Assembly (NCBI RefSeq): GCF_000531125.1
Contig: NZ_CBTK010000261.1
Span: 1 to 64,000 of the forward strand
DNA length: 64,000 nucleotides
DNA from: Candidatus Contendobacter odensis Run_B_J11
GTDB lineage: Bacteria > Pseudomonadota > Gammaproteobacteria > Competibacterales > Competibacteraceae
Direction of reading: 5' to 3'
Made by a program: the position numbers and the translations under genes. Shown here piece by piece: positions 23,826-35,469 of this stretch (position 1 is the stretch's first letter; each line of letters begins with the position of its first letter). The notes under the pieces were generated by a model. The model did no database searches. It saw nothing but the letters and a program-made list of their open reading frames with translations, and was not told the DNA's origin.

Positions 23826-24400
23826 GATTGGGGGGACTCCTTACGTCCAGCGCGGGGGCGATGCCACCCGATTGCGAGCGCTCCCACACCAAACAGCACG
23901 TAAAGAACGGACAGGTGAAACACGTTGATGCCGATTACAGCGAGCGCTACAAAAAACAGGTCGCCCAAGCGTTCCAGCGTCTTCTGAGCCAATTACACCC
24001 CGGTGGCGAAGATCAATCCGACCGCCGCCGCCGCCGCTCCGTGCAACATGGCTGTGGCGGCAGGCTGATGGCCGTGATGACCATAGGCCACTCCCACCGC
24101 GAACATGATCAGCGCGCCCGGTAAGCAGATGCCTGCCATCGCGACAATGGCGCCCGGCACGCCGCGTAGGTGGTCTCCCACCAGGATCGCCATGTTGGTC
24201 GCATTCAGACCTGGCAGCGATTGGCTGATCGCGAGAAAGCTGACGAAGGCGGAGTCGGTCAGCCAGCGGCGCTTGGCGACGAGACTCGTCCGCAGATAGG
24301 CGACGACGCTCCCGCCGAAGCTGGTCGCTCCAATCAGCAGGAAAACCCCGAAGATCTGGCCGATTGTTACGTCCATGGAGTCTTTCTGATCGCTCTTCAT
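23822..24400 (-). pseudogene. chrA: Short-chain chromate transporter, first half, broken by an in-frame TAA
   Basis: Reads MKSDQKDSMDVTIGQIFGVF, then TSFGGSVVAYLRTSLVAKRR and QSLPGLNATNMAILVGD, all CHR-family. At 23993-23995 the frame meets TAA after IFATGV. Beyond it the same frame continues without another stop for 56 codons (LAQKTLERLGDLFFVALAVI, then a further hydrophobic stretch and WHRPRAGRKESPQS) and ends in a TGA overlapping the next ATG. TAA differs from the CAA (Gln) expected there by one base. Full frame 192 residues, normal for the family; truncated product 135. Start ATG 24400 overlaps the stop of the upstream gene (ATGA). It could also be a sequencing error. Confidence 0.8.
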
Positions 24401-25314
24401 TCTTGAGCCTGGTCCGGCGCATGCAACTGGGTTTGATAAACAATGCCGGTCTTGGTCGTTCCCAGAGAAACCCAATCGCTCCCGATTTGCTGGAGCGTGG
24501 TGAAAAACTGCTTGCCGCGTTCCATGGCTTTGGTATGGAGTTCGTCGTTGCGCTGGAACTTGCATTGAAATGAAAATTCTCCCGCGAGCGGCTTATGGGT
24601 GCCCCGTTCGCGCCATAGCGCCGCATTGGCCTTGGCCTTGACTCCCTTGCCGAAATCCAGCACTCCCAAATCCTGCAATACCTCTTCGACAATCGTCTGA
24701 TTTACCAACTGGACTTTTTCGGTATCGTCGGTGGCCAGCGCCTGCAAACACGGAAAAACCCGCGCAATGTTCGCCATGGCGGCGTGATGCTCCTCTGGAG
24801 CCTGACTTAAACCAAATTGCACGTTGTGCGAGAACAGCAACCGGTGCCCGCCGATTTGATCCTTCAACGGCAGAGCCTCGGCCTTGAATTTGATTCGATA
24901 CGAGCCGGCAATGTTGGGCCGCACATCCAATTCGGCGGTTTTTTGCATGTCGGGATGGCGAAACTTGAAGACGATCTCCGGGTCGCCCACCGGGAAGTTG
25001 TCTTCGTAGATAATCCGCCGCCGCAAGATGAACTGATGGCGGTAGAGCCTGAAATCCGCCGTGTCGAGAAAAACGACCTCCCGGATTTTGGGCTTTGTAT
25101 TCACCACGCCCTCGGCGGAAAACCCCACTTTGAAGGCGTCAGCCGCACGCTGCACCAGTACGCCGTAGTCCCGAAAACTCTTTACGGAGGTGAATCGTTC
25201 GGGTTTCAGAATCACTTTGCATTCGAGATAGTGAACCGTATCGAGCGGATGTCCGTCGCTGTAAGTTCCCGGCTGGAGATCAAGAAATCTGGGATATGCA
25301 TCATTTTTCAACAT
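24397..25314 (-). CDS. Unrecognised cytosolic protein upstream of the chromate transporter
   Basis: 305 residues, no signal peptide or membrane segment. Alternating beta-strand segments rich in Lys, Arg and Glu (YLECKVILKPERF, REVVFLDTADFRLYRHQFIL, EIVFKFRHPD, YRIKFKAEAL) are weakly reminiscent of triphosphate-tunnel (CYTH-like) proteins, but the ExExK motif is not clearly present and I do not assign it. Start ATG 25314 is supported by GGAGA 8 bases upstream. ATGA overlap with the chromate transporter gene puts it in the same transcript. Its first 18 codons and leader lie within a 101-bp unit that is repeated in tandem just upstream. Confidence 0.75.
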   Translation of the reverse strand: MLKNDAYPRFLDLQPGTYSDGHPLDTVHYLECKVILKPERFTSVKSFRDYGVLVQRAADAFKVGFSAEGVVNTKPKIREVVFLDTADFRLYRHQFILRRRIIYEDNFPVGDPEIVFKFRHPDMQKTAELDVRPNIAGSYRIKFKAEALPLKDQIGGHRLLFSHNVQFGLSQAPEEHHAAMANIARVFPCLQALATDDTEKVQLVNQTIVEEVLQDLGVLDFGKGVKAKANAALWRERGTHKPLAGEFSFQCKFQRNDELHTKAMERGKQFFTTLQQIGSDWVSLGTTKTGIVYQTQLHAPDQAQE

Positions 25315-25462
25315 TTTGTTTCTCCATTTTCGCTATTGTGTTCCTCCGCTCGAAATCCAGTGTAAGTTCCCGGCTGGAGATCAAGAAATCTGGGATGTGC
25401 ATCATTTTTCAACATTTTGTTTCTCCATTTTCGCTATTGTGTTCCTCCGCTCGAAATCCAGT
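25261..25462. repeat. Tandem duplication, 2 x 101 bp
   Basis: Copies at 25261-25361 and 25362-25462 differ at one base that I can see (A at 25295, G at 25396). The unit contains the ribosome binding site, ATG and first 18 codons of the minus-strand gene at 24397-25314. The outer copy starts a second frame (MLKNDAHPRFLDLQPGTY) that does not join the gene because 101 is not a multiple of three. Confidence 0.95.
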
Positions 25463-25794
25463 GCTTGTTGGGTACTCGTCTGATTAGAACTCCGCCGCGA
25501 TTCGAGCCAAGGTATGGTTACAATTGTCCCCGCAGTTATCGCCACTCGGCAACTTTTTATAATCATAAAAGAAGTTCTTCGATCTTTTGTCCAGCAACTC
25601 CAGGACTTTTGCTCATGAACTTTAGTGTCGTCATACCCGTGAAAACGGGTATCCAGTTTTTTCAACGGGTTGATGGATTACCGCTGGCGCGGGAATGACG
25701 GCAAGCGAACGTCCTGAACTCCTTAGTGCTTTCCGATTGGCATGGATAGTGCCCAATTGCTTTGAGATTAAGCATACCAAGCGGGTCGCTGTCG
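25463..25794. other. Intergenic stretch before nasT
   Basis: About 330 bp without a supported gene. It holds the end of the tandem duplication, a MITE-like palindromic repeat (25622-25702) and the untranslated lead into nasT. No convincing promoter could be picked by eye. Confidence 0.6.
25622..25702. repeat. MITE-like palindromic repeat with CGTCAT/ATGACG ends
   Basis: Begins GTCGTCATACCCGTGAAAAC and ends GCGCGGGAATGACGGC. Inner hairpins ACCCGTGAAAACGGGT and CGCTGGCGCG. The end sequences are those of a short dispersed palindrome found in many proteobacteria (form: GTCATACCCGCG...CGCGGGAATGAC). Only one copy in the window. Confidence 0.7.
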
Positions 25795-26376
25795 ATGAAA
25801 AAAGTTGAAGTTATGCTGATTGACGCCCATCCAGGGCGATCAGCGATTCTGGAGCAGGCGCTGAGCGATGCCGGTTATCACATTACCGTTCGCACCGCCC
25901 GCACCGATCAGTTGTTGCAGCAGGTGCGGGAAACCCAGCCCGACGTGATTCTGATTGATATTGAGCTGCCCGACCGTGACACCCTGGAACAGTTGCGCGA
26001 TGTTGGGCAAAACCAGCCCCGGCCGATTGTGATGTTCGCTGAACGCAGCGATCCTGAGACTACTGCCGCCGCCTTGCGGGCCGGGGTCAGCGCTTATGTG
26101 GTGGACGATCTCAACCCGCGCCGCCTCCAGCCCATCATGGAGGTCGCCATCGCCCGGTTCCGCGAGTATCAGGCGTTGCGCCGGGAACTGGAGGAAACCC
26201 GCAACCGCCTGGCCGAGCGCAAGGTGATTGAAAAAGCGAAGGGTCTGCTGATGGCGCAGCGAAATTTGAGCGAGGAGGAAGCTTATCAGGCGTTGCGCAA
26301 GCTGGCGATGGATCGCAATCAGCGGATCGGCGAGGTAGCGCGCACCGTGACCTCACTGCTGGAAATGCTGGGTTGA
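25795..26376 (+). CDS. nasT: ANTAR-type antitermination regulator NasT
   Basis: 193 residues from the ATG at 25795. Receiver-like domain (LIDAHPGRSAILEQAL, acceptor Asp in DVILIDIELPDRD) then a coiled linker and a C-terminal ANTAR RNA-binding domain (RKVIEKAKGLLMAQRNLSEE and EAYQALRKLAMDRNQRIGEV). NasT proteins bind two-hexaloop RNA leaders and prevent termination ahead of nitrate assimilation genes; such a leader lies 190 bases downstream. In known systems NasS, a nitrate-binding protein, holds NasT inactive without nitrate; no NasS gene is in the window. Confidence 0.93.
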   Translation: MKKVEVMLIDAHPGRSAILEQALSDAGYHITVRTARTDQLLQQVRETQPDVILIDIELPDRDTLEQLRDVGQNQPRPIVMFAERSDPETTAAALRAGVSAYVVDDLNPRRLQPIMEVAIARFREYQALRRELEETRNRLAERKVIEKAKGLLMAQRNLSEEEAYQALRKLAMDRNQRIGEVARTVTSLLEMLG

Positions 26377-26406: not shown

Positions 26407-26421
26407 TGGCGCGCTGCGCCA
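26407..26421. other. Short GC hairpin after nasT
   Basis: TGGCGC-GCT-GCGCCA, a perfect 6-bp stem, 30 bases after the nasT stop. No T-run follows. Confidence 0.4.
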
Positions 26422-26460
26422 CGATAGCGCAAATCGGGCGTCAAACCGGAGGAAAAACCC

Positions 26461-26478: not shown

Positions 26479-26564
26479 TTCAATGTCGATCAATCACTCA
26501 ATAAAGATGGCGCGTTTCATGCTTCTGTTTTGCTAACAACCTTTCCCAGCGACGGGACGGGTTA

Positions 26565-26602
26565 CGCGGCCAACGACGGTCGCGCATCGGACAAAGGCGT
26601 CC
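26565..26602 (+). ncRNA. ANTAR-target two-hexaloop antiterminator RNA
   Basis: Hairpin P1, 26565-26584: stem CGCGGCC/GGTCGCG (7 bp, one G-U) with loop AACGAC. Linker CATC. Hairpin P2, 26589-26602: stem GGAC/GTCC with loop AAAGGC. Both loops have six bases with A at position 1 and G at position 4, the ANTAR-target rule. The 3' side of P2 is the 5' arm of the terminator at 26595-26641, so forming P2 excludes the terminator. nasT is next door. Confidence 0.88.
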
Positions 26603-26641
26603 AGCTTTCGCGGAATACGCGGAGCTGCGACGCCTTTTTTT
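26595..26641 (+). terminator. Conditional intrinsic terminator of the nas/nrt leader
   Basis: AGGCGTC-c-AGCT pairs with AGCT-gc-GACGCCT, with an inner CGCG/CGCG stem, followed by seven T's (26635-26641). It ends 27 bases before the nrtA start, so it can shut off the whole operon. Overlaps P2 of the ANTAR target at 26595-26602. Confidence 0.88.
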
Positions 26642-26668
26642 ATGGGTCATCTGGCGGGGATTTACGAT

Positions 26669-28093
26669 ATGAACAAAGCGAACGTGACGACCGTAGCACA
26701 AGCGCCCGACCTGTCCCGGCGCCGCTTTCTCCAGGGCGGCGGACTGGCGCTCGGTGGCGCTACCCTGCTGGGCGGAACTGCACCCTGGCTGCGGACCAGC
26801 GCCTGGGCGGGCGAGGGCGGTGGTTTGGAGAAATCCAAATTGACCTTGGGTTTTATTCCGCTCACCGATTGCGCGCCGTTGGTGGTGGCGGCGGAGAAAG
26901 GATATTTCAAGAAATACGGCCTGGAGGCGGCGCTTTCCAAGGAGGCGTCCTGGGCCAATATCCGCGACAAGGTGTCTATCGGCGAACTGGACGGCGCGCA
27001 CATGCTGGCGGGGATGCCCATCGCCGCCAGCCTCGGCGTGGGCGCGTTGCCCAAGGCCACAATCACCGCGTTCTCGATGGATCTCAACGGCAACGCCACC
27101 ACCGTTTCCAACGAATTGTACGAGCGGATGGTGAAGGCCGACCCCGAAGCGATGAAGGAGCGCCCGCTCACCGCCCGCGCCCTGAAAAAGGTCATTGACG
27201 CCGACAAGGTCGCCGGCAAGGAGCCGATGACCTTTGCCGTGGTGTTCCCGGTCTCTACCCACAACTATCAATTGCGCTATTGGCTGGGGTCGGCGGGCAT
27301 CAACCCCGATCAGGATTTACGACTGATCGTGATTCCGCCGCCGCAAATGGTCGCCAATCTCAAGGCCGGCAATATCGCCGGTTATTGCGTCGGTGAGCCG
27401 TGGAATGAGCGAGCGGTGGAAACCGGGATTGGCCGGGTGCTGATTACCAGTTATGAATTGTGGAACAACAACCCGGAAAAGGTGTTCGGCGTCAATCTGG
27501 AATGGCATGAGAAAAATCCGCGCACCCATCAGGCGTTGCTGATGGCCTTGCTGGAAGCGACGCAATGGATGGATCAGCCGGAAAATCGAATGGAAGTGGT
27601 TCGGCTGATTGCGCAAAAGTCCTATGTCAACGCGCCGGAAGACGTGGTGAAAATGTCCATGACCGGCACCTTCAAATACGCGCAAAACGAAGAACCGCGC
27701 CCGCTGCCGGATTTCAATGTGTTTTACCGTTATGCCGCCAATTTTCCCTGGCGGTCGCACGCCGCCTGGTTCATCACTCAGATGTACCGCTGGGGCCAAC
27801 TGGAACAGCCCGCCAACATTCTCCAGGCCGCCGCTTCGATCTATCGCCCCGACCTGTACCGGCAGGCCGCCAAAGCCTTGAATCTGCCATATCCGACGAT
27901 TGAGGTGAAGACCGAGGGCAGTCACGCCGCAGGCTGGACCCTTAACGAAGCGACCACCCCGATAGCAATGGGGCCGGATCGCTTTTTCGATGGCGGGCAG
28001 TTTGATCCCAAAAAACTGGGCGAGTACGTCACCGGCTTTGCAGTGAAAAACCTGAAAGTCGCGCCGGATGCGTTGTTGAAGGCCAACGCCTGA
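26669..28093 (+). CDS. nrtA: Nitrate ABC transporter, periplasmic binding protein NrtA
   Basis: About 474 residues from the ATG at 26669. Twin-arginine signal SRRRFLQGGGLALGGATLLG, export by Tat. The rest is the CmpA/NrtA nitrate-binding family: KLTLGFIPLTDCAPLVVAAE, DGAHMLAGMPIAA, CVGEPWNERAVETG. NasS sensors are related but lack a signal peptide, so this is the transporter component. An in-frame ATG at 26642 is too close to the terminator T-run to be used. First gene after the antiterminator leader. Confidence 0.93.
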   Translation: MNKANVTTVAQAPDLSRRRFLQGGGLALGGATLLGGTAPWLRTSAWAGEGGGLEKSKLTLGFIPLTDCAPLVVAAEKGYFKKYGLEAALSKEASWANIRDKVSIGELDGAHMLAGMPIAASLGVGALPKATITAFSMDLNGNATTVSNELYERMVKADPEAMKERPLTARALKKVIDADKVAGKEPMTFAVVFPVSTHNYQLRYWLGSAGINPDQDLRLIVIPPPQMVANLKAGNIAGYCVGEPWNERAVETGIGRVLITSYELWNNNPEKVFGVNLEWHEKNPRTHQALLMALLEATQWMDQPENRMEVVRLIAQKSYVNAPEDVVKMSMTGTFKYAQNEEPRPLPDFNVFYRYAANFPWRSHAAWFITQMYRWGQLEQPANILQAAASIYRPDLYRQAAKALNLPYPTIEVKTEGSHAAGWTLNEATTPIAMGPDRFFDGGQFDPKKLGEYVTGFAVKNLKVAPDALLKANA

Positions 28094-28111
28094 ATGGGAG
28101 AGGAAACCGAG

Positions 28112-29050
28112 ATGAGCAATAAGGTCATTGCCCTGACCATCACGCCGCCGATTGTTGCCGAAACGGCGCCGGTCGTTAAAGTTCGCCCGCCGGTTCGGGA
28201 AGCGGCCAACGTCGAGCGGCAACCGCCCGCATCCCCGGCCTACAATTTTCCGCCAGTGTCGAAAGCCAGACTTCGCGCCGCCGCGCTCACTCGCGCCATC
28301 GTCTTGCCGACTCTGGTTTTCCTAGTGGTGCTGGCTATCTGGACCTTCGTCAACGCCAAAATCACCAGCGACATTCCCACTCCCGCCGCCACCTGGGCGC
28401 GAGCGGTGGAGATTTTCAGCAACCCGTTCTACGTCGCTGGCCCGAATGACATGGGCATCGGCTGGCAGGTGTTGTATTCGCTGGGTCGGGTCATGGCCGG
28501 TTTCGCCCTAGCGGTCATCGTGGGGATTCCGGTGGGCTTTCTGATGGGTGCCAGCCGCGCTTTTTATCAAGCCTGCTATCCGCTGGTGCAGATTCTGCGC
28601 CCGGTCAGTCCGCTGGCCTGGCTGCCGATTGGCCTGCTGGTGTTTCAGGCCAAAGACCCGTCGGCCATCTTCGTGATCTTCATCACCAGCATCTGGCCGG
28701 TGATCGTCAATACCGCCGCCGGGGTGCAGGCGATTCCGCAGGATTATCTCAACGTGGCGCGGGTGTTGCGTCTGGGCAAGCTGGAAGTGACCCGCCGCAT
28801 CCTGATTCCCGCCACTCTGCCGCATATTCTGACCGGGATGCGGCTGTCGCTGAGCGTGGCCTGGATGGTGATCGTGGCGGCGGAAATGCTCACCGGCGGG
28901 GTCGGCATTGGCTTCTACGTCTGGGACGAGTGGAACAATCTCAACGTCGCTTCGATCATCGTGGCGATTGGCCTGATCGGGCTGGTCGGCATCGCGCTGG
29001 AAAGCGTGATGAATCTGGCGCAGCGCCATTTTGACTACAACCGCCGTTGA
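28112..29050 (+). CDS. nrtB: Nitrate ABC transporter, permease NrtB
   Basis: About 312 residues. N-terminal cytoplasmic stretch rich in Pro, then six membrane segments and the binding-protein-dependent transport signature (ALVIFQAKDPSAIFVIFITS region; LRLGKLEVTRRILIPATLPH, the EAA loop that contacts the ATPase). Close to NrtB/NasE. ATG 28112 is preferred over 28094 because GAGAGG lies between them at suitable distance. The 3' end runs close to nrtD. Confidence 0.92.
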   Translation: MSNKVIALTITPPIVAETAPVVKVRPPVREAANVERQPPASPAYNFPPVSKARLRAAALTRAIVLPTLVFLVVLAIWTFVNAKITSDIPTPAATWARAVEIFSNPFYVAGPNDMGIGWQVLYSLGRVMAGFALAVIVGIPVGFLMGASRAFYQACYPLVQILRPVSPLAWLPIGLLVFQAKDPSAIFVIFITSIWPVIVNTAAGVQAIPQDYLNVARVLRLGKLEVTRRILIPATLPHILTGMRLSLSVAWMVIVAAEMLTGGVGIGFYVWDEWNNLNVASIIVAIGLIGLVGIALESVMNLAQRHFDYNRR

Positions 29051-29064
29051 TGGAGGAAACCGCC

Positions 29065-29856
29065 ATGAGTTACCTGAACATTTCCAATGTAGACGTGGTG
29101 TTTCCCACCGCCAACGGCGCGTACATCGCCCTGCGCGAAGTGCATCTCGAAATCGAAAAAGGCGAATTCATCGCCATCATCGGCCATTCCGGCTGCGGCA
29201 AATCCACGGTGTTGAATGTAGTTGCCGGTCTGTTGCAGGCGACCCGTGGCGGAGTGCTGCTGGAAAATCGCGAAGTGAACAGCCCCGGTCCGGATCGGGC
29301 GGTGGTGTTCCAGAATCATTCACTGCTGCCGTGGCTAACGGTGTACGAGAACGTGCGGATCGCGGTGGATAAGGTGTTTGGCAAGAGCAAATCCAAGGCC
29401 GAACGCCACGACTGGACGCTGCACAATCTTCATTTGGTACACATGGATCACGCTGCCGACAAGCTGCCCGGCGCGATTTCCGGCGGAATGAAGCAACGGG
29501 TCGGCATCGCCCGCGCTTTGGCGATGCAGCCAAAAGTATTGCTGATGGATGAGCCGTTTGGCGCACTCGACGCGCTGACCCGCGCTCATTTGCAGGAATC
29601 GGTGATGGAAATTCAAACCGCGCTGAATAACACGGTGCTGATGATCACTCACGATGTGGATGAGGCGGTGTTGCTGGCTGATCGCATCGTGATGATGACC
29701 AACGGCCCGGCGGCAACAGTCGGCGAGATTCTCAAGGTGGATTTGCCGCGCCCGCGCCATCGGCTCGAACTGGCCGATGACGCCCGCTACAACCATTACC
29801 GCGCTGAGGTGCTGCGGTTCCTCTACGAGCGGCAACGGCGACCGGAAGCGGCGTGA
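29065..29856 (+). CDS. nrtD: Nitrate ABC transporter, ATP-binding protein NrtD
   Basis: 263 residues. Walker [11 protein letters not shown]-loop [16 protein letters not shown], signature [14 protein letters not shown], Walker [16 protein letters not shown], switch His in MITHDVDEA. The C-terminus is short, without the NrtA-like domain of cyanobacterial NrtC, so this is the NrtD/NasD form; a single ATPase gene implies a homodimer. ATG 29065 follows GGAGG at 29051-29055. Confidence 0.93.
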
Positions 29857-29903: not shown

Positions 29904-29930
29904 TGAATCTCAAGCGGCAAGGGTTTGAAG

Positions 29931-32372
29931 ATGAGCGCGAAAGAACGTCTGGTTCTGGTGGGTAACGGCATGGCCGGAATGCGTACTCTGGAAGAGTTGC
30001 TGACGATTGCGCCGGATCGCTACGACATCACCGTATTCGGCGCGGAGCCTTACGGTAATTACAACCGCATTCTGCTGTCGCCGGTGCTGGCGGGTGAGAA
30101 GACGGTCGAGCAGATCATGATCAATGATCTGAACTGGTATGCCGAGCGCGGGATTACCCTGTACGCGGGCCAGGAAGTGACGCGGATCAATCGGGCGCGG
30201 CGGCAGGTTCACGCCGCCGACGAGACCATTGCGCCGTATGACCGGCTGTTGCTGGCGACTGGCTCCGATCCCTTCATTATTCCCATTCCCGGTAATAGCT
30301 TGCCCGGCGTGATCACCTTCCGCGACATCCGCGATGTGCAGGCGATGCTGGATGCCGCCCAGGCCGGTAAAAAACAGGCCGTAGTCATCGGCGGCGGTCT
30401 GCTGGGGCTGGAAGCGGCTAACGGCTTGATGAAGCAGGGGATGGAAGTCACTGTCGTGCATTTGCTCGATGTACTGATGGAACGGCAACTTGATCCCGAA
30501 GCGGCGGCTCTGCTACGCGCCAGCCTGGAAGAGCGCGGGATGCGCTTCCTGACCGGTATGCAGACGGTCGCCCTGCTTGGCGAAGAGCGGGTTCGCGGCG
30601 TGCGTTTCAAGGATGGGCTGGAAATTCCCGCCGATCTGGTGGTGATGGCGGTTGGCATTCGTCCCAATATCACGCTGGCTAAAGCCTTCGGCATTCACTG
30701 CGAACGCGGCATCGTGGTCAACGACACCATGCAGACCTACGACCCGCGCATCTACGCGGTCGGCGAGTGCGTGCAGCATCGCGGCCAGACCTATGGCCTG
30801 GTCGCGCCGCTATGGGAACAGGCGCGGGTGTGCGCCAATCATCTCGCCTGCTACGGGATTAGTCGCTATCGCGGCTCGGTGACTTCGACCAAGCTGAAGG
30901 TGACGGGCATTGATGTGTTCTCCGCTGGCGATTTTGGCGGCGGGCCGGGCTGCGACGAGATCGTATTGCGCGATCGGGCGCGCAGCGTCTACAAGAAACT
31001 GGTGGTCCAGGATAACCGGGTCAAGGGCGCGGTGATGTACGGCGACACCATTGACGGCAACTGGTACTTCCAGTTGTTGCGCGAGGGAACCGACATCGGC
31101 GCGTTCCGTGATTCGATTCTGTTCGGGCAGGCGCACTTGGGCGACGCCGGCCATGGCGGCAACAACGTGCTGGCGATGGCCGATGATGCGGAGATTTGCG
31201 GCTGCAACGGGGTATGCAAGGGCGCGATTGTCAAGGCGATCACGGCGCAGAAACTGTTCACCCTGGAAGGCGTCCGCGCCCACACCAAGGCGTCGGCGTC
31301 CTGCGGTTCCTGCACCGGGCTGGTTGAGCAATTATTGGCCGCGACCGTCGGCGACTATTCCAAGACCGCCCAGGAAAAGCCGTTGTGCGCTTGCACCGAC
31401 CATAGCCACGATCAGGTGCGCAAAACCATCCGCGAACAGCATTTAACGAGCTTGCGGGCGGTATTCGAGTTCATGGAATGGAAAACGCCCGACGGTTGCC
31501 ATTCCTGCCGCCCGGCGATCAATTTCTATCTGCTTGCCACCTGGCCGGGCGAGGCGCAAGACGATTCGCAATCCCGCTTCATCAACGAGCGGGTTCACGC
31601 CAACATCCAGAAAGACGGCACTTATTCGGTGGTGCCGCGCATCTGGGGCGGGGTGACCAATGCGAAAGAATTGCGGGCTATCGCCGACGTGGCGGACAAG
31701 TTTCAGGTTCCCACCGTCAAGATCACCGGCGGCCAGCGCATCGATCTGTTGGGCGTGAAGAAAGAGGATTTGCCCAAGGTCTGGGCCGATCTCAACGCCG
31801 CCGGGATGGTCTCCGGCCATGCTTACGGCAAGTCGCTGCGCACGGTGAAAACCTGCGTCGGTTCCGAATGGTGCCGGTTCGGGACCCAGGATTCGACCGG
31901 GTTGGGAATCAAACTGGAGCGGATGACCTGGGGATCGTGGACGCCGCATAAGTTCAAGATGGCGGTGTCCGGCTGTCCGCGTAATTGCGCCGAAGCCACG
32001 ATCAAGGATTTCGGTGTGGTGTGCGTGGATTCCGGCTACGAACTGCATGTCGGCGGCAACGGCGGGATCAAGCTGCGCGGCACTGATTTGCTGTGCAAGG
32101 TGGCTACCGAAGCCGAAGCGATGGAGTACGCCGGGGCCTTCATGCAACTTTACCGAGAGGAAGGCCGCTATCTGGAACGCACCGCGCCGTGGCTGGAACG
32201 GGTCGGGCTGGCTTACGTTAAGCAGCGCATCGTCGAGGACGGCGAAGGCCGTAACGTGCTGCATCAACGGTTTCTCGCCTCCCAGCAGTACGCTCAGATC
32301 GATCCGTGGGCGGAACGCGCCAGCGGTCGGGTGGACGCCCACGAGTTCCAGCCGTTGCGGCAGGTGGGTTAA
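29931..32372 (+). CDS. nirB: Assimilatory nitrite reductase, large subunit NirB/NasB
   Basis: About 813 residues. NAD(P)H-dependent six-electron reduction of nitrite to ammonium. N-terminal FAD/NAD oxidoreductase (VLVGNGMAGMRTLEEL; second nucleotide site VVIGGGLLGLEAANGL; VYAVGEC-type motif as IYAVGECVQHRGQTYG). Two BFD-type 2Fe-2S modules (CGCNGVCKGAI...SCGSCTG; CACTDHSHDQV...GCHSCRP). Then ferredoxin-like and siroheme/4Fe-4S domains with CVGSEWCRFG and CPRNCAEA. Start ATG 29931 preferred over a TTG two codons earlier. Followed by nirD. Confidence 0.95.
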   Translation: MSAKERLVLVGNGMAGMRTLEELLTIAPDRYDITVFGAEPYGNYNRILLSPVLAGEKTVEQIMINDLNWYAERGITLYAGQEVTRINRARRQVHAADETIAPYDRLLLATGSDPFIIPIPGNSLPGVITFRDIRDVQAMLDAAQAGKKQAVVIGGGLLGLEAANGLMKQGMEVTVVHLLDVLMERQLDPEAAALLRASLEERGMRFLTGMQTVALLGEERVRGVRFKDGLEIPADLVVMAVGIRPNITLAKAFGIHCERGIVVNDTMQTYDPRIYAVGECVQHRGQTYGLVAPLWEQARVCANHLACYGISRYRGSVTSTKLKVTGIDVFSAGDFGGGPGCDEIVLRDRARSVYKKLVVQDNRVKGAVMYGDTIDGNWYFQLLREGTDIGAFRDSILFGQAHLGDAGHGGNNVLAMADDAEICGCNGVCKGAIVKAITAQKLFTLEGVRAHTKASASCGSCTGLVEQLLAATVGDYSKTAQEKPLCACTDHSHDQVRKTIREQHLTSLRAVFEFMEWKTPDGCHSCRPAINFYLLATWPGEAQDDSQSRFINERVHANIQKDGTYSVVPRIWGGVTNAKELRAIADVADKFQVPTVKITGGQRIDLLGVKKEDLPKVWADLNAAGMVSGHAYGKSLRTVKTCVGSEWCRFGTQDSTGLGIKLERMTWGSWTPHKFKMAVSGCPRNCAEATIKDFGVVCVDSGYELHVGGNGGIKLRGTDLLCKVATEAEAMEYAGAFMQLYREEGRYLERTAPWLERVGLAYVKQRIVEDGEGRNVLHQRFLASQQYAQIDPWAERASGRVDAHEFQPLRQVG

Positions 32373-32390
32373 GGAATGGAGAACATGATC

Positions 32391-32741
32391 ATGTATGACT
32401 GGCACGAAATCGGCGAACTTGACAACATTCCCCGGCTCGGCTCGCGGGTGGTGAATACGCCATACGGCGACGTGGCGATCTTCCGCGCCGCCGACGATCA
32501 GGTGTTCGCTCTGCGGGACCGCTGTCCGCACAAGGGCGGGCCGTTGTCGCAGGGCATTGTGTACGGCCATCGCGTGACGTGTCCGCTGCATAACTGGGTG
32601 CTGGAGCTGGACAGCGGCCAGGCGGTTGCGCCCGATGTGGGCTGCGCGACCTGTTATCCGCTGCGGCTGGAGAATGGGCGGATCTGGCTGGGGCTGAATA
32701 ACCTCGTCAATTTGTCGGCTGCGCCACAGCAAGCCGCTTGA
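32391..32741 (+). CDS. nirD: Assimilatory nitrite reductase, small subunit NirD (Rieske type)
   Basis: About 116 residues. Rieske 2Fe-2S ligands are complete: CPHKGG and CPLHNW, so this is the iron-sulfur form of NirD/NasE rather than the cluster-less enterobacterial form. ATG 32391 has GGAG 9 bases upstream (32378-32381); ATGs at 32376 and 32385 are in frame but less well placed. Partner of NirB. Confidence 0.93.
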   Translation: MYDWHEIGELDNIPRLGSRVVNTPYGDVAIFRAADDQVFALRDRCPHKGGPLSQGIVYGHRVTCPLHNWVLELDSGQAVAPDVGCATCYPLRLENGRIWLGLNNLVNLSAAPQQAA

Positions 32742-32757: not shown

Positions 32758-35469
32758 ATGATCAGCAGCTTACCTCCCGCCCCAGCCTTCCCCCGCAAGG
32801 AGGGAGGGAGTGACAGCGGCGAAGAAATCCGCACCACCTGCCCCTATTGCGGAGTGGGTTGCGGGGTAAAGGTCACGGTGGATGCCGATGGTCAGGCGCA
32901 GGTGACGGGCGACGAGCGCCATCCCGCAAATTACGGACGGCTGTGTTCGAAAGGCGCGGCGCTAGGCGAAACTCTGAGTCTCGATGATCGCCTGCTTTAT
33001 CCTGAAATCCACGGACGGCGCGCGACATGGGATGAAGCGCTGGACGCAGTTGCCGCCGGTTTTCGCAACGCGCTGGCTGAACACGGTCCCGACGCCATCG
33101 CCTTCTATGTTTCCGGGCAGTTGCTCACTGAGGATTACTACGTCGCCAACAAGCTGATGAAGGGTTGTTTCGGCAGCGCCAACATCGACACCAATTCGCG
33201 GCTGTGCATGTCCTCTTCAGTGGCGGGACATCAACGGGCCTTCGGTTCCGACACCGTGCCGGGTTGCTATGAGGACTTGGAGGACGCTGATCTGGTGGTG
33301 CTGGTCGGCTCCAATCTGGCCTGGTGTCATCCGGTGCTGTATCAGCGCATTCTCGCCGCCCGCGAACAACGCGCCGGCAAACCCCGGCTGGTGGTGATCG
33401 ATCCGCGCCGCACCGCCACTTGCGAGGCCGCCGAAATCCATTTGCCGCTCAAACCGGGTTCGGATACCGCGCTGTTCAACGGTCTGCTGGCGCATCTCTA
33501 TCAGCAGGATCGGTTGAATCCAGAGTTTCTCGATCGGCATGTCGCCGGTTTCTGGTCAGCGTATCAGGCCGCCAAGGCGGTTGCGCCCAACATTCCGACC
33601 GTGGCCGCCAAAACCGGTTTGTCGGAAAGCGCGGTCGCCGAGTTCTATGGTCTCTGGGGCCGAACTCATAAAGTGGTGACGGTGTACTCGCAGGGCGTGA
33701 ACCAGTCTTCTTATGGCAGCGACAAGGTGAATGCGATCATCAACTGCCATCTCGCCACCGGGCGGATTGGTCAGCCGGGAATGGGGCCGTTCTCTGTCAC
33801 CGGTCAGCCGAACGCGATGGGAGGGCGTGAAGTCGGCGGGCTGGCCAGTCAATTGGCGGCGCACATGGATTTCGCGCCGGAGGCGGTCGAACGGGTGCGA
33901 CGCTTTTGGAAAGCGCCCGCCATCGCCAGTCGCCCCGGCTTAAAAGCAGTTGAACTATTTCAGGCGGTCGCCGACACCAAAATCAAGGCGCTGTGGATCA
34001 TGGGCACTAATCCACTGGTGAGTCTGCCGGACGCCGACGCGGCGCGGGAAGCGTTGCGGCGCTGCCCGCTGGTGATTGTCTCCGATGCGGTGGCGGATAC
34101 CGACACCGTGCGTTTGGCGCAGATCAAGCTGCCGGCGCTGACCTGGGGCGAGAAGGAAGGCGCGGTGACCAACTCCGAGCGGCGAATTTCCCGGCAGCGG
34201 GCGTTTTTGCCGCCGCCGGGCGAGGCGCAACCCGATTGGTGGGCGATGACTCAGGTAGCGCGGCGGTTGGGATTCGGCGCCCTGTTTCCCTACGAATCGC
34301 CAGCGGCCATTTTTCGCGAACACGCGGCGTTGTCGGGTTTTGAAAACGAGGGTCGCCGCGATTTCGACATTTCCGCGCTGGCCGATCTCACCGATGACGG
34401 TTACGACGCCTTGCCGCCGGTGCAATGGCCGTTGCCGCGTGGCGCAACCACAGGCGCTACGCGCCTGTTTGGCGAAGGCGGCTTTTTCACCGCCGATGGT
34501 AAAGCCCGCTGCATCGCGGTCGGCGAACGGTCGCCCGCGTATGCGGTGGACAAGAGCTTTCCGCTGATCCTTAATAGTGGCCGGATTCGTGATCAGTGGC
34601 ACACCATGACCCGTACCGGCAAAACGGCGCGACTGACCGGCCATATTCCAGAACCCTATGTTGAGATTCATCCGGTAGACGCGCTGGCCTGCGGCGTTAG
34701 CGAGAACGGGCTGGCGCGGGTGCAGAGTCGCTGGGGTGAAGTCATTGTCCGGGTGCGAACCAGCGCGGAACAGCAGCCGGGTAGCGTGTTCGCACCGATG
34801 CACTGGGGTTCGCCGCTGGCGCCACAGGGACGGGTCAACGCGGCAGTCAATCCGGCGGTCGATCCGCTGTCCGGTCAGCCGGAATTGAAGCACACCCCAG
34901 TGCGGGTGCAGGCGTACCGCCCACGCTGGCATGGCTTCCTGTTGTGCCGCGAAGCCATTGAACCGCCGACGGTGGAGTATCGGGTCAGCGTGCGCGAGCG
35001 GGCCTGCTGGCGCTATGAACTGGCGGGCGAAAATGTGATTGGCGATTGGCCGGACTGGGCGCGGACTCTGTTCGGCGACGATCCGGGCTGGGAATGGCTG
35101 GAATTCGCCGATGCGGGCACGGGGCGCTATCGGGGCGCGGTGCTGGCTGAGGGACGACTACAGGCTTGCCTGTTCGTTGCGCCGACTCACGAATTGCCGC
35201 TGCGTGGCTGGCTGGCTGGACTGTTCGCGGCAGCGGAACTCGGTGTTGCTGAACACGCCAGTTTGTTAGCCGGTCGGCCAAGGCCGGGCCAGCGGGATTG
35301 CGGACGGATCGTTTGCGCCTGTTTTGGCGTCGGGTTGAACGCGCTGACGACCGCCATTCGCGATCAGGGTTTGGCGACGCCGGAAGCGATTGGCGCGACG
35401 CTGAAAGCGGGCAGCAATTGCGGGTCTTGTGTGCCGGAATTGCGGCAACTCATTCAGGAGTACGGCTGA
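32758..35469 (+). CDS. nasA: Assimilatory nitrate reductase catalytic subunit NasA
   Basis: 903 residues. Mo-bis-MGD oxidoreductase of the NasA/NarB/NapA type, cytoplasmic. N-terminal 4Fe-4S motif CPYCGVGCGV with the fourth Cys in GRLCSKGAAL; cofactor-binding stretch SNLAWCHPVLYQR; C-terminal molybdopterin domain. After about residue 830 there is a BFD-type 2Fe-2S domain (CACFGVG...SNCGSCVPELRQL), an electron entry module found in many NasA proteins. The first 22 or so residues (SSLPPAPAFPRKEGG) are encoded by the dispersed repeat at 32771-32812. ATG 32758 is preceded by GGGAGG. Overlaps convergent mobB by 20 bases. Confidence 0.93.
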   Translation: MISSLPPAPAFPRKEGGSDSGEEIRTTCPYCGVGCGVKVTVDADGQAQVTGDERHPANYGRLCSKGAALGETLSLDDRLLYPEIHGRRATWDEALDAVAAGFRNALAEHGPDAIAFYVSGQLLTEDYYVANKLMKGCFGSANIDTNSRLCMSSSVAGHQRAFGSDTVPGCYEDLEDADLVVLVGSNLAWCHPVLYQRILAAREQRAGKPRLVVIDPRRTATCEAAEIHLPLKPGSDTALFNGLLAHLYQQDRLNPEFLDRHVAGFWSAYQAAKAVAPNIPTVAAKTGLSESAVAEFYGLWGRTHKVVTVYSQGVNQSSYGSDKVNAIINCHLATGRIGQPGMGPFSVTGQPNAMGGREVGGLASQLAAHMDFAPEAVERVRRFWKAPAIASRPGLKAVELFQAVADTKIKALWIMGTNPLVSLPDADAAREALRRCPLVIVSDAVADTDTVRLAQIKLPALTWGEKEGAVTNSERRISRQRAFLPPPGEAQPDWWAMTQVARRLGFGALFPYESPAAIFREHAALSGFENEGRRDFDISALADLTDDGYDALPPVQWPLPRGATTGATRLFGEGGFFTADGKARCIAVGERSPAYAVDKSFPLILNSGRIRDQWHTMTRTGKTARLTGHIPEPYVEIHPVDALACGVSENGLARVQSRWGEVIVRVRTSAEQQPGSVFAPMHWGSPLAPQGRVNAAVNPAVDPLSGQPELKHTPVRVQAYRPRWHGFLLCREAIEPPTVEYRVSVRERACWRYELAGENVIGDWPDWARTLFGDDPGWEWLEFADAGTGRYRGAVLAEGRLQACLFVAPTHELPLRGWLAGLFAAAELGVAEHASLLAGRPRPGQRDCGRIVCACFGVGLNALTTAIRDQGLATPEAIGATLKAGSNCGSCVPELRQLIQEYG
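32771..32812. repeat. C/G-rich hairpin repeat inside nasA (copy h)
   Basis: TACCTCCCGCCCCAGCCTTC then CCCCGCAAGGAGGGAGGG; differs from the DUF559-flanking copy f by a few bases over its length and is in the frame that encodes LPPAPAFPRKEGG, almost the peptide encoded at the DUF559 C-terminus. Confidence 0.8.

Follow-up and report, generated by a model that had tools for sequence, protein, structure and literature searches.

A probable NasT-controlled antitermination leader with three hexaloop hairpins precedes the nitrate assimilation operon of Candidatus Contendobacter odensis

How transcription into a nitrate assimilation operon is controlled is the question raised by the leader that separates nasT from nrtA in the 64,000-nucleotide stretch of Candidatus Contendobacter odensis Run_B_J11 analyzed here (contig NZ_CBTK010000261.1, positions 1 to 64,000; hereafter the window). 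The best matches of the organism group it with Contendobacter and Competibacter. All genes and elements from nasT to the end of the operon lie on its forward strand. A first-pass annotation had described the leader as a complete NasT-type antitermination switch made of two hexaloop hairpins, with an ANTAR gene directly upstream. The neighboring gene, nasT (25795..26376), indeed encodes a 193 aa protein with a receiver-like domain (Pfam Response_reg PF00072, 57.8 bits) and a C-terminal ANTAR domain (PF03861, 73.8 bits, residues 133-185), the domain pair of NasT in NasS-NasT systems, and this ANTAR domain is the only one detected in the genome. In 68 of 81 relatives Asp stands where canonical receivers have their lysine, which suggests that protein contacts play a larger part in control than phosphorylation does. 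The genes downstream of the leader are nrtA (26670..28093), coding for a nitrate-binding protein with a Tat signal (SRRRFLQ; PF13379, 323.7-325.6 bits); the nrtB permease gene (28094..29050; TIGR01183 ntrB, 242.7 bits) and the nrtD ATPase gene (29047..29856; TIGR01184 ntrCD, 337.7 bits), both scoring above the cut-off; nirB, for the large subunit of assimilatory nitrite reductase (29925..32372; TIGR02374, 940 bits); nirD (32376..32741; TIGR02378, 95.5 bits); and a putative nasA/nasC-type assimilatory nitrate reductase gene (32758..35469), named from its gene context and a match to NF047855 that stays below the curated cut-off (414.8 bits). By Pfam, no NrtA-like domain is fused to nrtD. The nrtA start at 26670 is conserved in relatives together with the Tat motif, and the in-frame ATG at 26642 is a less likely start. 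Equivalent leaders adjoin nasT or precede nrt/nir genes in many Proteobacteria.

Three observations concern the surroundings and relatives of this locus. The start of a divergent ORF (24397-25314) carries a near-perfect tandem repeat of about 100 bp (GTAAGTTCCCGGCTGGAGATC..., 25263-25460), and an inverted sequence resembling a repeat element (CGTCATACCCGTGAAAACGGGTAT ... CGCGGGAATGACG, 25630-25705) lies upstream of nasT. Contig JAAUTD010000102.1 (L006), filed under 'Synechococcaceae cyanobacterium', encodes NasT and NrtA that are 96% and 92% identical to those of the window; it is probably misnamed, and it recurs in a genome (G015) placed in the window's own genus.

The core of the leader can be read directly from its sequence. 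Hairpin P1 (26565..26584; CGCGGCC-AACGAC-GGTCGCG) has a 7 bp stem, formed by 26565-26571 and 26578-26584, and the loop AACGAC (26572-26577). It is followed by a 4 nt linker, CATC (26585-26588), and by hairpin P2 (GGAC-AAAGGC-GTCC), the putative antiterminator, in which 4 bp (26589-26592/26599-26602) enclose the loop AAAGGC (26593-26598). Both loops are hexaloops whose first letter is A and whose fourth is G (A1/G4), and these letters are invariant in eight Competibacteraceae relatives. When the region 26565-26602 was folded alone it adopted exactly P1 plus P2 in 92% of the ensemble, and thus both the sequence and the folding agree with the hexaloops and the 4-base linker described in the first-pass annotation. 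The loop and the 3' strand of P2 (26593-26602) are at the same time the 5' arm of an intrinsic terminator (26593..26641), composed of a hairpin (26593-26637), in which AAAGGCGTC (26593-26601) pairs with GACGCCTTT (26629-26637), and of a run of seven T (26635-26641) that ends 28 bases before the nrtA ATG. P2 and the terminator hence exclude each other, as had been proposed, and according to the predicted folds the terminator (-30.9 kcal/mol) displaces P2 (-4.0 kcal/mol) once its 3' arm is complete. A simple terminator scan is limited to shorter hairpins and for that reason passed over this terminator. Compared with shuffled versions, the leader has a much more stable predicted fold (z -6.15). 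A scan of both strands of the 64 kb gave the combination of dual hairpin and terminator a single time, and 30 dinucleotide shuffles of the plus strand of the window gave none.

The first-pass annotation had named the lack of a covariance hit at 26565-26602 as one result that would refute the NasT reading. The model used, R2, was built from 14 leaders of other lineages and left out the closest relatives of the window. Its best match in the window coincided exactly with 26565-26602 and reached 44.1 bits (roughly calibrated E 2e-8), and the second-best match scored 16.4 bits. In the R2 alignment eight of the 11 pairs show changes on both sides, and no shuffle equals its covariation score; for P1, two-sided changes affect six of the seven pairs across the 14 leaders. 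At Rfam's own gathering cut-offs no family matched the window. A permissive search gave as its best two families the narK RNA and P11, both at the place of the leader: narK RNA (RF03032) aligned with 26565-26601 at 30.2 bits, below its gathering score of 43.2, and P11 (RF00625) aligned over its full model length with 26496-26634 at 25 bits, below its gathering score of 70, so that the leader belongs to neither family at sequence level. That both models stay under their gathering scores counts against the NasT antiterminator reading.

The array does not begin with P1 however, as the first-pass annotation had it. A third A1/G4 hexaloop hairpin, P0, which had been overlooked, is present at 26538..26563 (loop AGCGAC, 26548-26553) in both the minimum-energy and the centroid structure, and it moves the start of the array from 26565 to 26538. 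Of the earlier description the A1/G4 loop pair consequently stands, but the count of two does not. As the structure nearest the 5' end of the predicted transcript, P0 might be a mere 5' stabilizing hairpin without a NasT site. We consider this unlikely, since in the eight Competibacteraceae the P0 loops (AGCGAC, ACCGAC, ACTGGC, ACCGCT, ACTGGC, ATTGGC, AATGGT and AAAGGC) all keep exactly A1 and G4 while positions 2, 3, 5 and 6 vary, and since unrelated leaders, too, carry additional A1/G4 loops upstream of P2, at a distance of 41-84 nt. Two pairs of the P0 stem show two-sided changes (C-G to U-A and U-A to C-G); both changes come from the same two relatives and give support of modest depth.

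Arrays of three to four A1/G4 loops recur in other NasT leaders. Upstream of P2, 51 non-redundant leaders contain 59 A1/G4 hexaloop hairpins, against 25 for the other fifteen letter pairs together and 1.5 A1/G4 hairpins expected from shuffles. The 51 leaders include related organisms, so that these counts are not independent events. At least two A1/G4 hexaloops besides P2 are present in 17 of the 51, and some of the leaders scored as having no further loop may be misclassified. Leaders of the Thiodiazotropha type have four A1/G4 loops, and in several of them R2 matches a second, upstream pair. These counts bear on a simpler explanation, namely that the region is an ordinary attenuator or terminator between nasT and nrtA, in which the hexaloops arose by chance and NasT plays no role. 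Intergenic intrinsic terminators are common, but the excess of A1/G4 loops, the covariation and the absence of the combination from the 30 window shuffles make this explanation very improbable.

The leader shares with the known dual-hairpin targets of ANTAR proteins (EutV-eutP, NasR-nasF and AmiR-amiE; PMC3369931, PMC8934654) the A1/G4 hexaloops, the C-G closing pairs, a short linker, the location of P2 within an intrinsic terminator and an ANTAR protein encoded in the genome; its stems of 7 and 4 bp exceed the minimum of 3 bp for such targets. It differs from them in having three hexaloops, with up to four in relatives, where the description has two, and in its linker. The open-access papers compared here describe two hairpins (PMC3369931, PMC8934654, PMC5424462). 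Natural eut leaders have linkers of 5-12 nt and a 3 nt linker is defective (PMC3369931). A linker of 4 nt, shorter than those of the eut leaders, is hence a second point against the NasT antiterminator reading; linkers in NasT leaders usually measure 3-6 nt. With P11 the leader shares the layout from a sigma-54 promoter through to a terminator, and the Pseudomonas P11 RNA before nirB carries three A1/G4 hexaloops (AACGAT, AGAGAA and AAAGGC). With the narK RNA it shares the aligned P1 and P2 strand, although the narK model leaves P2 unpaired. The narK RNA and the P11 'sRNA' (L138 and L134, Pseudomonas sp. sp1636) contain A1/G4 hexaloops followed by terminators. By their sequences both Rfam families resemble NasT antitermination leaders and may deserve re-annotation as such.

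One other RNA in the genome was considered as an ANTAR target and rejected. It lies upstream of coaBC (C298:76027-76129) and matched another model, R1, with 33.9 bits, but genomes that lack an ANTAR match have it as well, and in its second loop position 1 can be A, C, G or T. This RNA occupies the radC-coaBC gap of many relatives (L104, which is G000:C298:76027-76129 on the minus strand, and L113-L116, L118-L122 and L124-L133 in other Competibacteraceae). It is very conserved and structured, consists of GGCGGCTAACGGGGGCCGCCGTCGCGGAC-N-ATGGCGTCC ... terminator on the coaBC strand, and has no match in Rfam; possibly it is an unknown leader or small RNA.

Expression of the leader itself would depend on a promoter of the nitrogen-controlled type. 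A predicted sigma-54 promoter (TGGCGCG-N5-TGCT, 26508..26523) is the single match to its pattern in the window, where 0.24 are expected by chance; it is conserved in all eight relatives and is taken in by the P11 alignment. The transcript start predicted from it, at about 26534, directly precedes P0. A putative NtrC-like enhancer site (TGCGCC-ACGAT-AGCGCA) is located at 26415..26431, and a relaxed TGC/GCA palindrome pattern is matched 92-94 bp upstream of the sigma-54 -24 element in every one of the eight Competibacteraceae leaders. The genome encodes RpoN and NtrC (743 bits, above the curated cut-off), and no sigma-70 promoters were found near the leader.

Together, the R2 match, the covariation, the mutual exclusion of P2 and terminator and the adjacent ANTAR gene support the view that the leader of the nrtABD-nirBD-nasA operon in this Competibacteraceae bacterium is a NasT-controlled transcription antiterminator, to which we assign a probability of about 0.9. 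Under nitrogen limitation NtrC and sigma-54 would start the transcript at about 26534, judging from their sites. As RNA polymerase proceeds, the first about 108 nt would fold into P0, P1 and P2 in succession, which is what the folds predicted for the growing transcript, the sequence and its conservation indicate. Without active NasT the more stable terminator would, by the predicted energies, consume P2 and end transcription before nrtA. By analogy with the work on EutV, NasR and NasS-NasT, NasT made from the adjacent gene would first bind P0 and P1, the hairpins that are always available, and next stabilize P2; the terminator would thereby be blocked, and RNA polymerase would read into nrtA. 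Nitrate would presumably be the signal to which this switch responds.

In the characterized systems this signal is perceived by NasS, a cytoplasmic protein related to NrtA that binds nitrate and, as long as it is nitrate-free, keeps NasT inactive (PMC3795266). A separate NasS was not detected in the genome, which is 99.5% complete by the tool's estimate. Genome-wide, NrtA is the one strong match to PF13379; three other proteins match weakly, each below 40 bits. The locus thus has, in common with the NasS-NasT systems of Paracoccus and Bradyrhizobium (PMC3795266, PMC5424462, PMC6759348), a terminator leader and, beside or close to nitrate/nitrite assimilation genes, a NasT that combines a receiver-like domain and an ANTAR domain; it differs in that no signal-less nitrate-binding protein was detected and that the sole strong NrtA/NasS-type protein carries a Tat signal for export and is encoded inside the operon governed by the switch. 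The kind of switch was annotated correctly, but the word complete is consequently too strong for it, and control by nitrate is not assured, a third point against the NasT antiterminator reading. Related genomes with the same leader likewise have one strong PF13379 protein (in one of them nrtA is in two pieces), and so do Plasticicumulans, Novimethylophilus, Pseudomethylobacillus, Methylobacillus flagellatus and others, among which drafts can lack genes. Two PF13379 proteins are present in Neptuniibacter, Marinomonas and Pseudomonas.

The lack of a detected NasS in this genome and in several relatives would fit a NasT that is always active, in which case the leader would only tune expression and the real control would reside at the NtrC/sigma-54 promoter. 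The strong conservation of the NtrC-like/sigma-54 arrangement points the same way, as does a Paracoccus nasS mutant that makes nitrate reductase without nitrate and keeps ammonium repression (PMC5424462). All eight Competibacteraceae leaders, however, retain both terminator and hairpin array, which would be unexpected for a permanently open switch. We regard a permanently active NasT as possible but doubtful.

If the NasT switch does respond to nitrate, one candidate for the sensor is NrtA, the nitrate-binding protein. Compared with NasS or the C-domain of NrtC, the core of the window's NrtA gave 51-62% in most cases and 35-46% in others, against 35-49% with exported NrtA. In a tree it formed a lineage of its own (62/77) that did not decide the side. 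With a core nearer to NasS or the NrtC C-domain and a separate position in the tree, this 'NrtA' may or may not be a NasS with an added signal. Tat substrates fold before export, and the precursor could therefore act as a folded cytoplasmic inhibitor. A single Tat-exported NrtA in Competibacteraceae would then serve transport when exported and NasS-like inhibition of NasT as cytoplasmic precursor, with NasT acting on the three-hexaloop array, a proposal that we put forward very tentatively and consider rather improbable; if true, the switch would govern its own inhibitor. A cytoplasmic NrtA made from an internal TTG start found no support: the TTG at residue 61 is conserved, but TTG is used for leucine in 13 of 47 codons, and a conserved Shine-Dalgarno sequence is absent.

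Other loci show different arrangements. At two of them (L017 and L018) a signal-less NasS stands at the place corresponding to that of NrtA, in the order nasT - leader - nasS; there a NasT-type leader precedes nasS itself (L017 6646, L018 5919) and a second one precedes nrtA, an arrangement suggesting that NasT might feed back on its own inhibitor. In Thiodiazotropha the second PF13379 copy is fused to an ATPase, like cyanobacterial NrtC. Such NrtC-type ATPase-NrtA fusions of about 720-760 aa replace the free NasS at Thiodiazotropha-like nasT loci (L052, L054, L056, L059, L060, L065, L068, L069, L076 and L015; confirmed by Pfam in L065), and their fused NrtA-like domain could be the NasT sensor.

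The leader is thus a switch of known kind in a variant form, with an additional hairpin and with NasS not detected. Because leaders carrying three or four loops occur in nature, hand-off can be tested against bridging: under the hand-off model, additional upstream loops should contribute additively and be able to replace one another in part, whereas the bridging model predicts that only the loop pair adjacent to the terminator matters. What perceives nitrate when NasT occurs without detectable NasS is a question posed by Competibacteraceae, by Plasticicumulans and by methylotrophs such as Methylobacillus. Competibacteraceae are glycogen-accumulating organisms of wastewater plants, where nitrate use matters, and their variant leader puts both the use of several loops by ANTAR proteins and the working of NasT without NasS within experimental reach.
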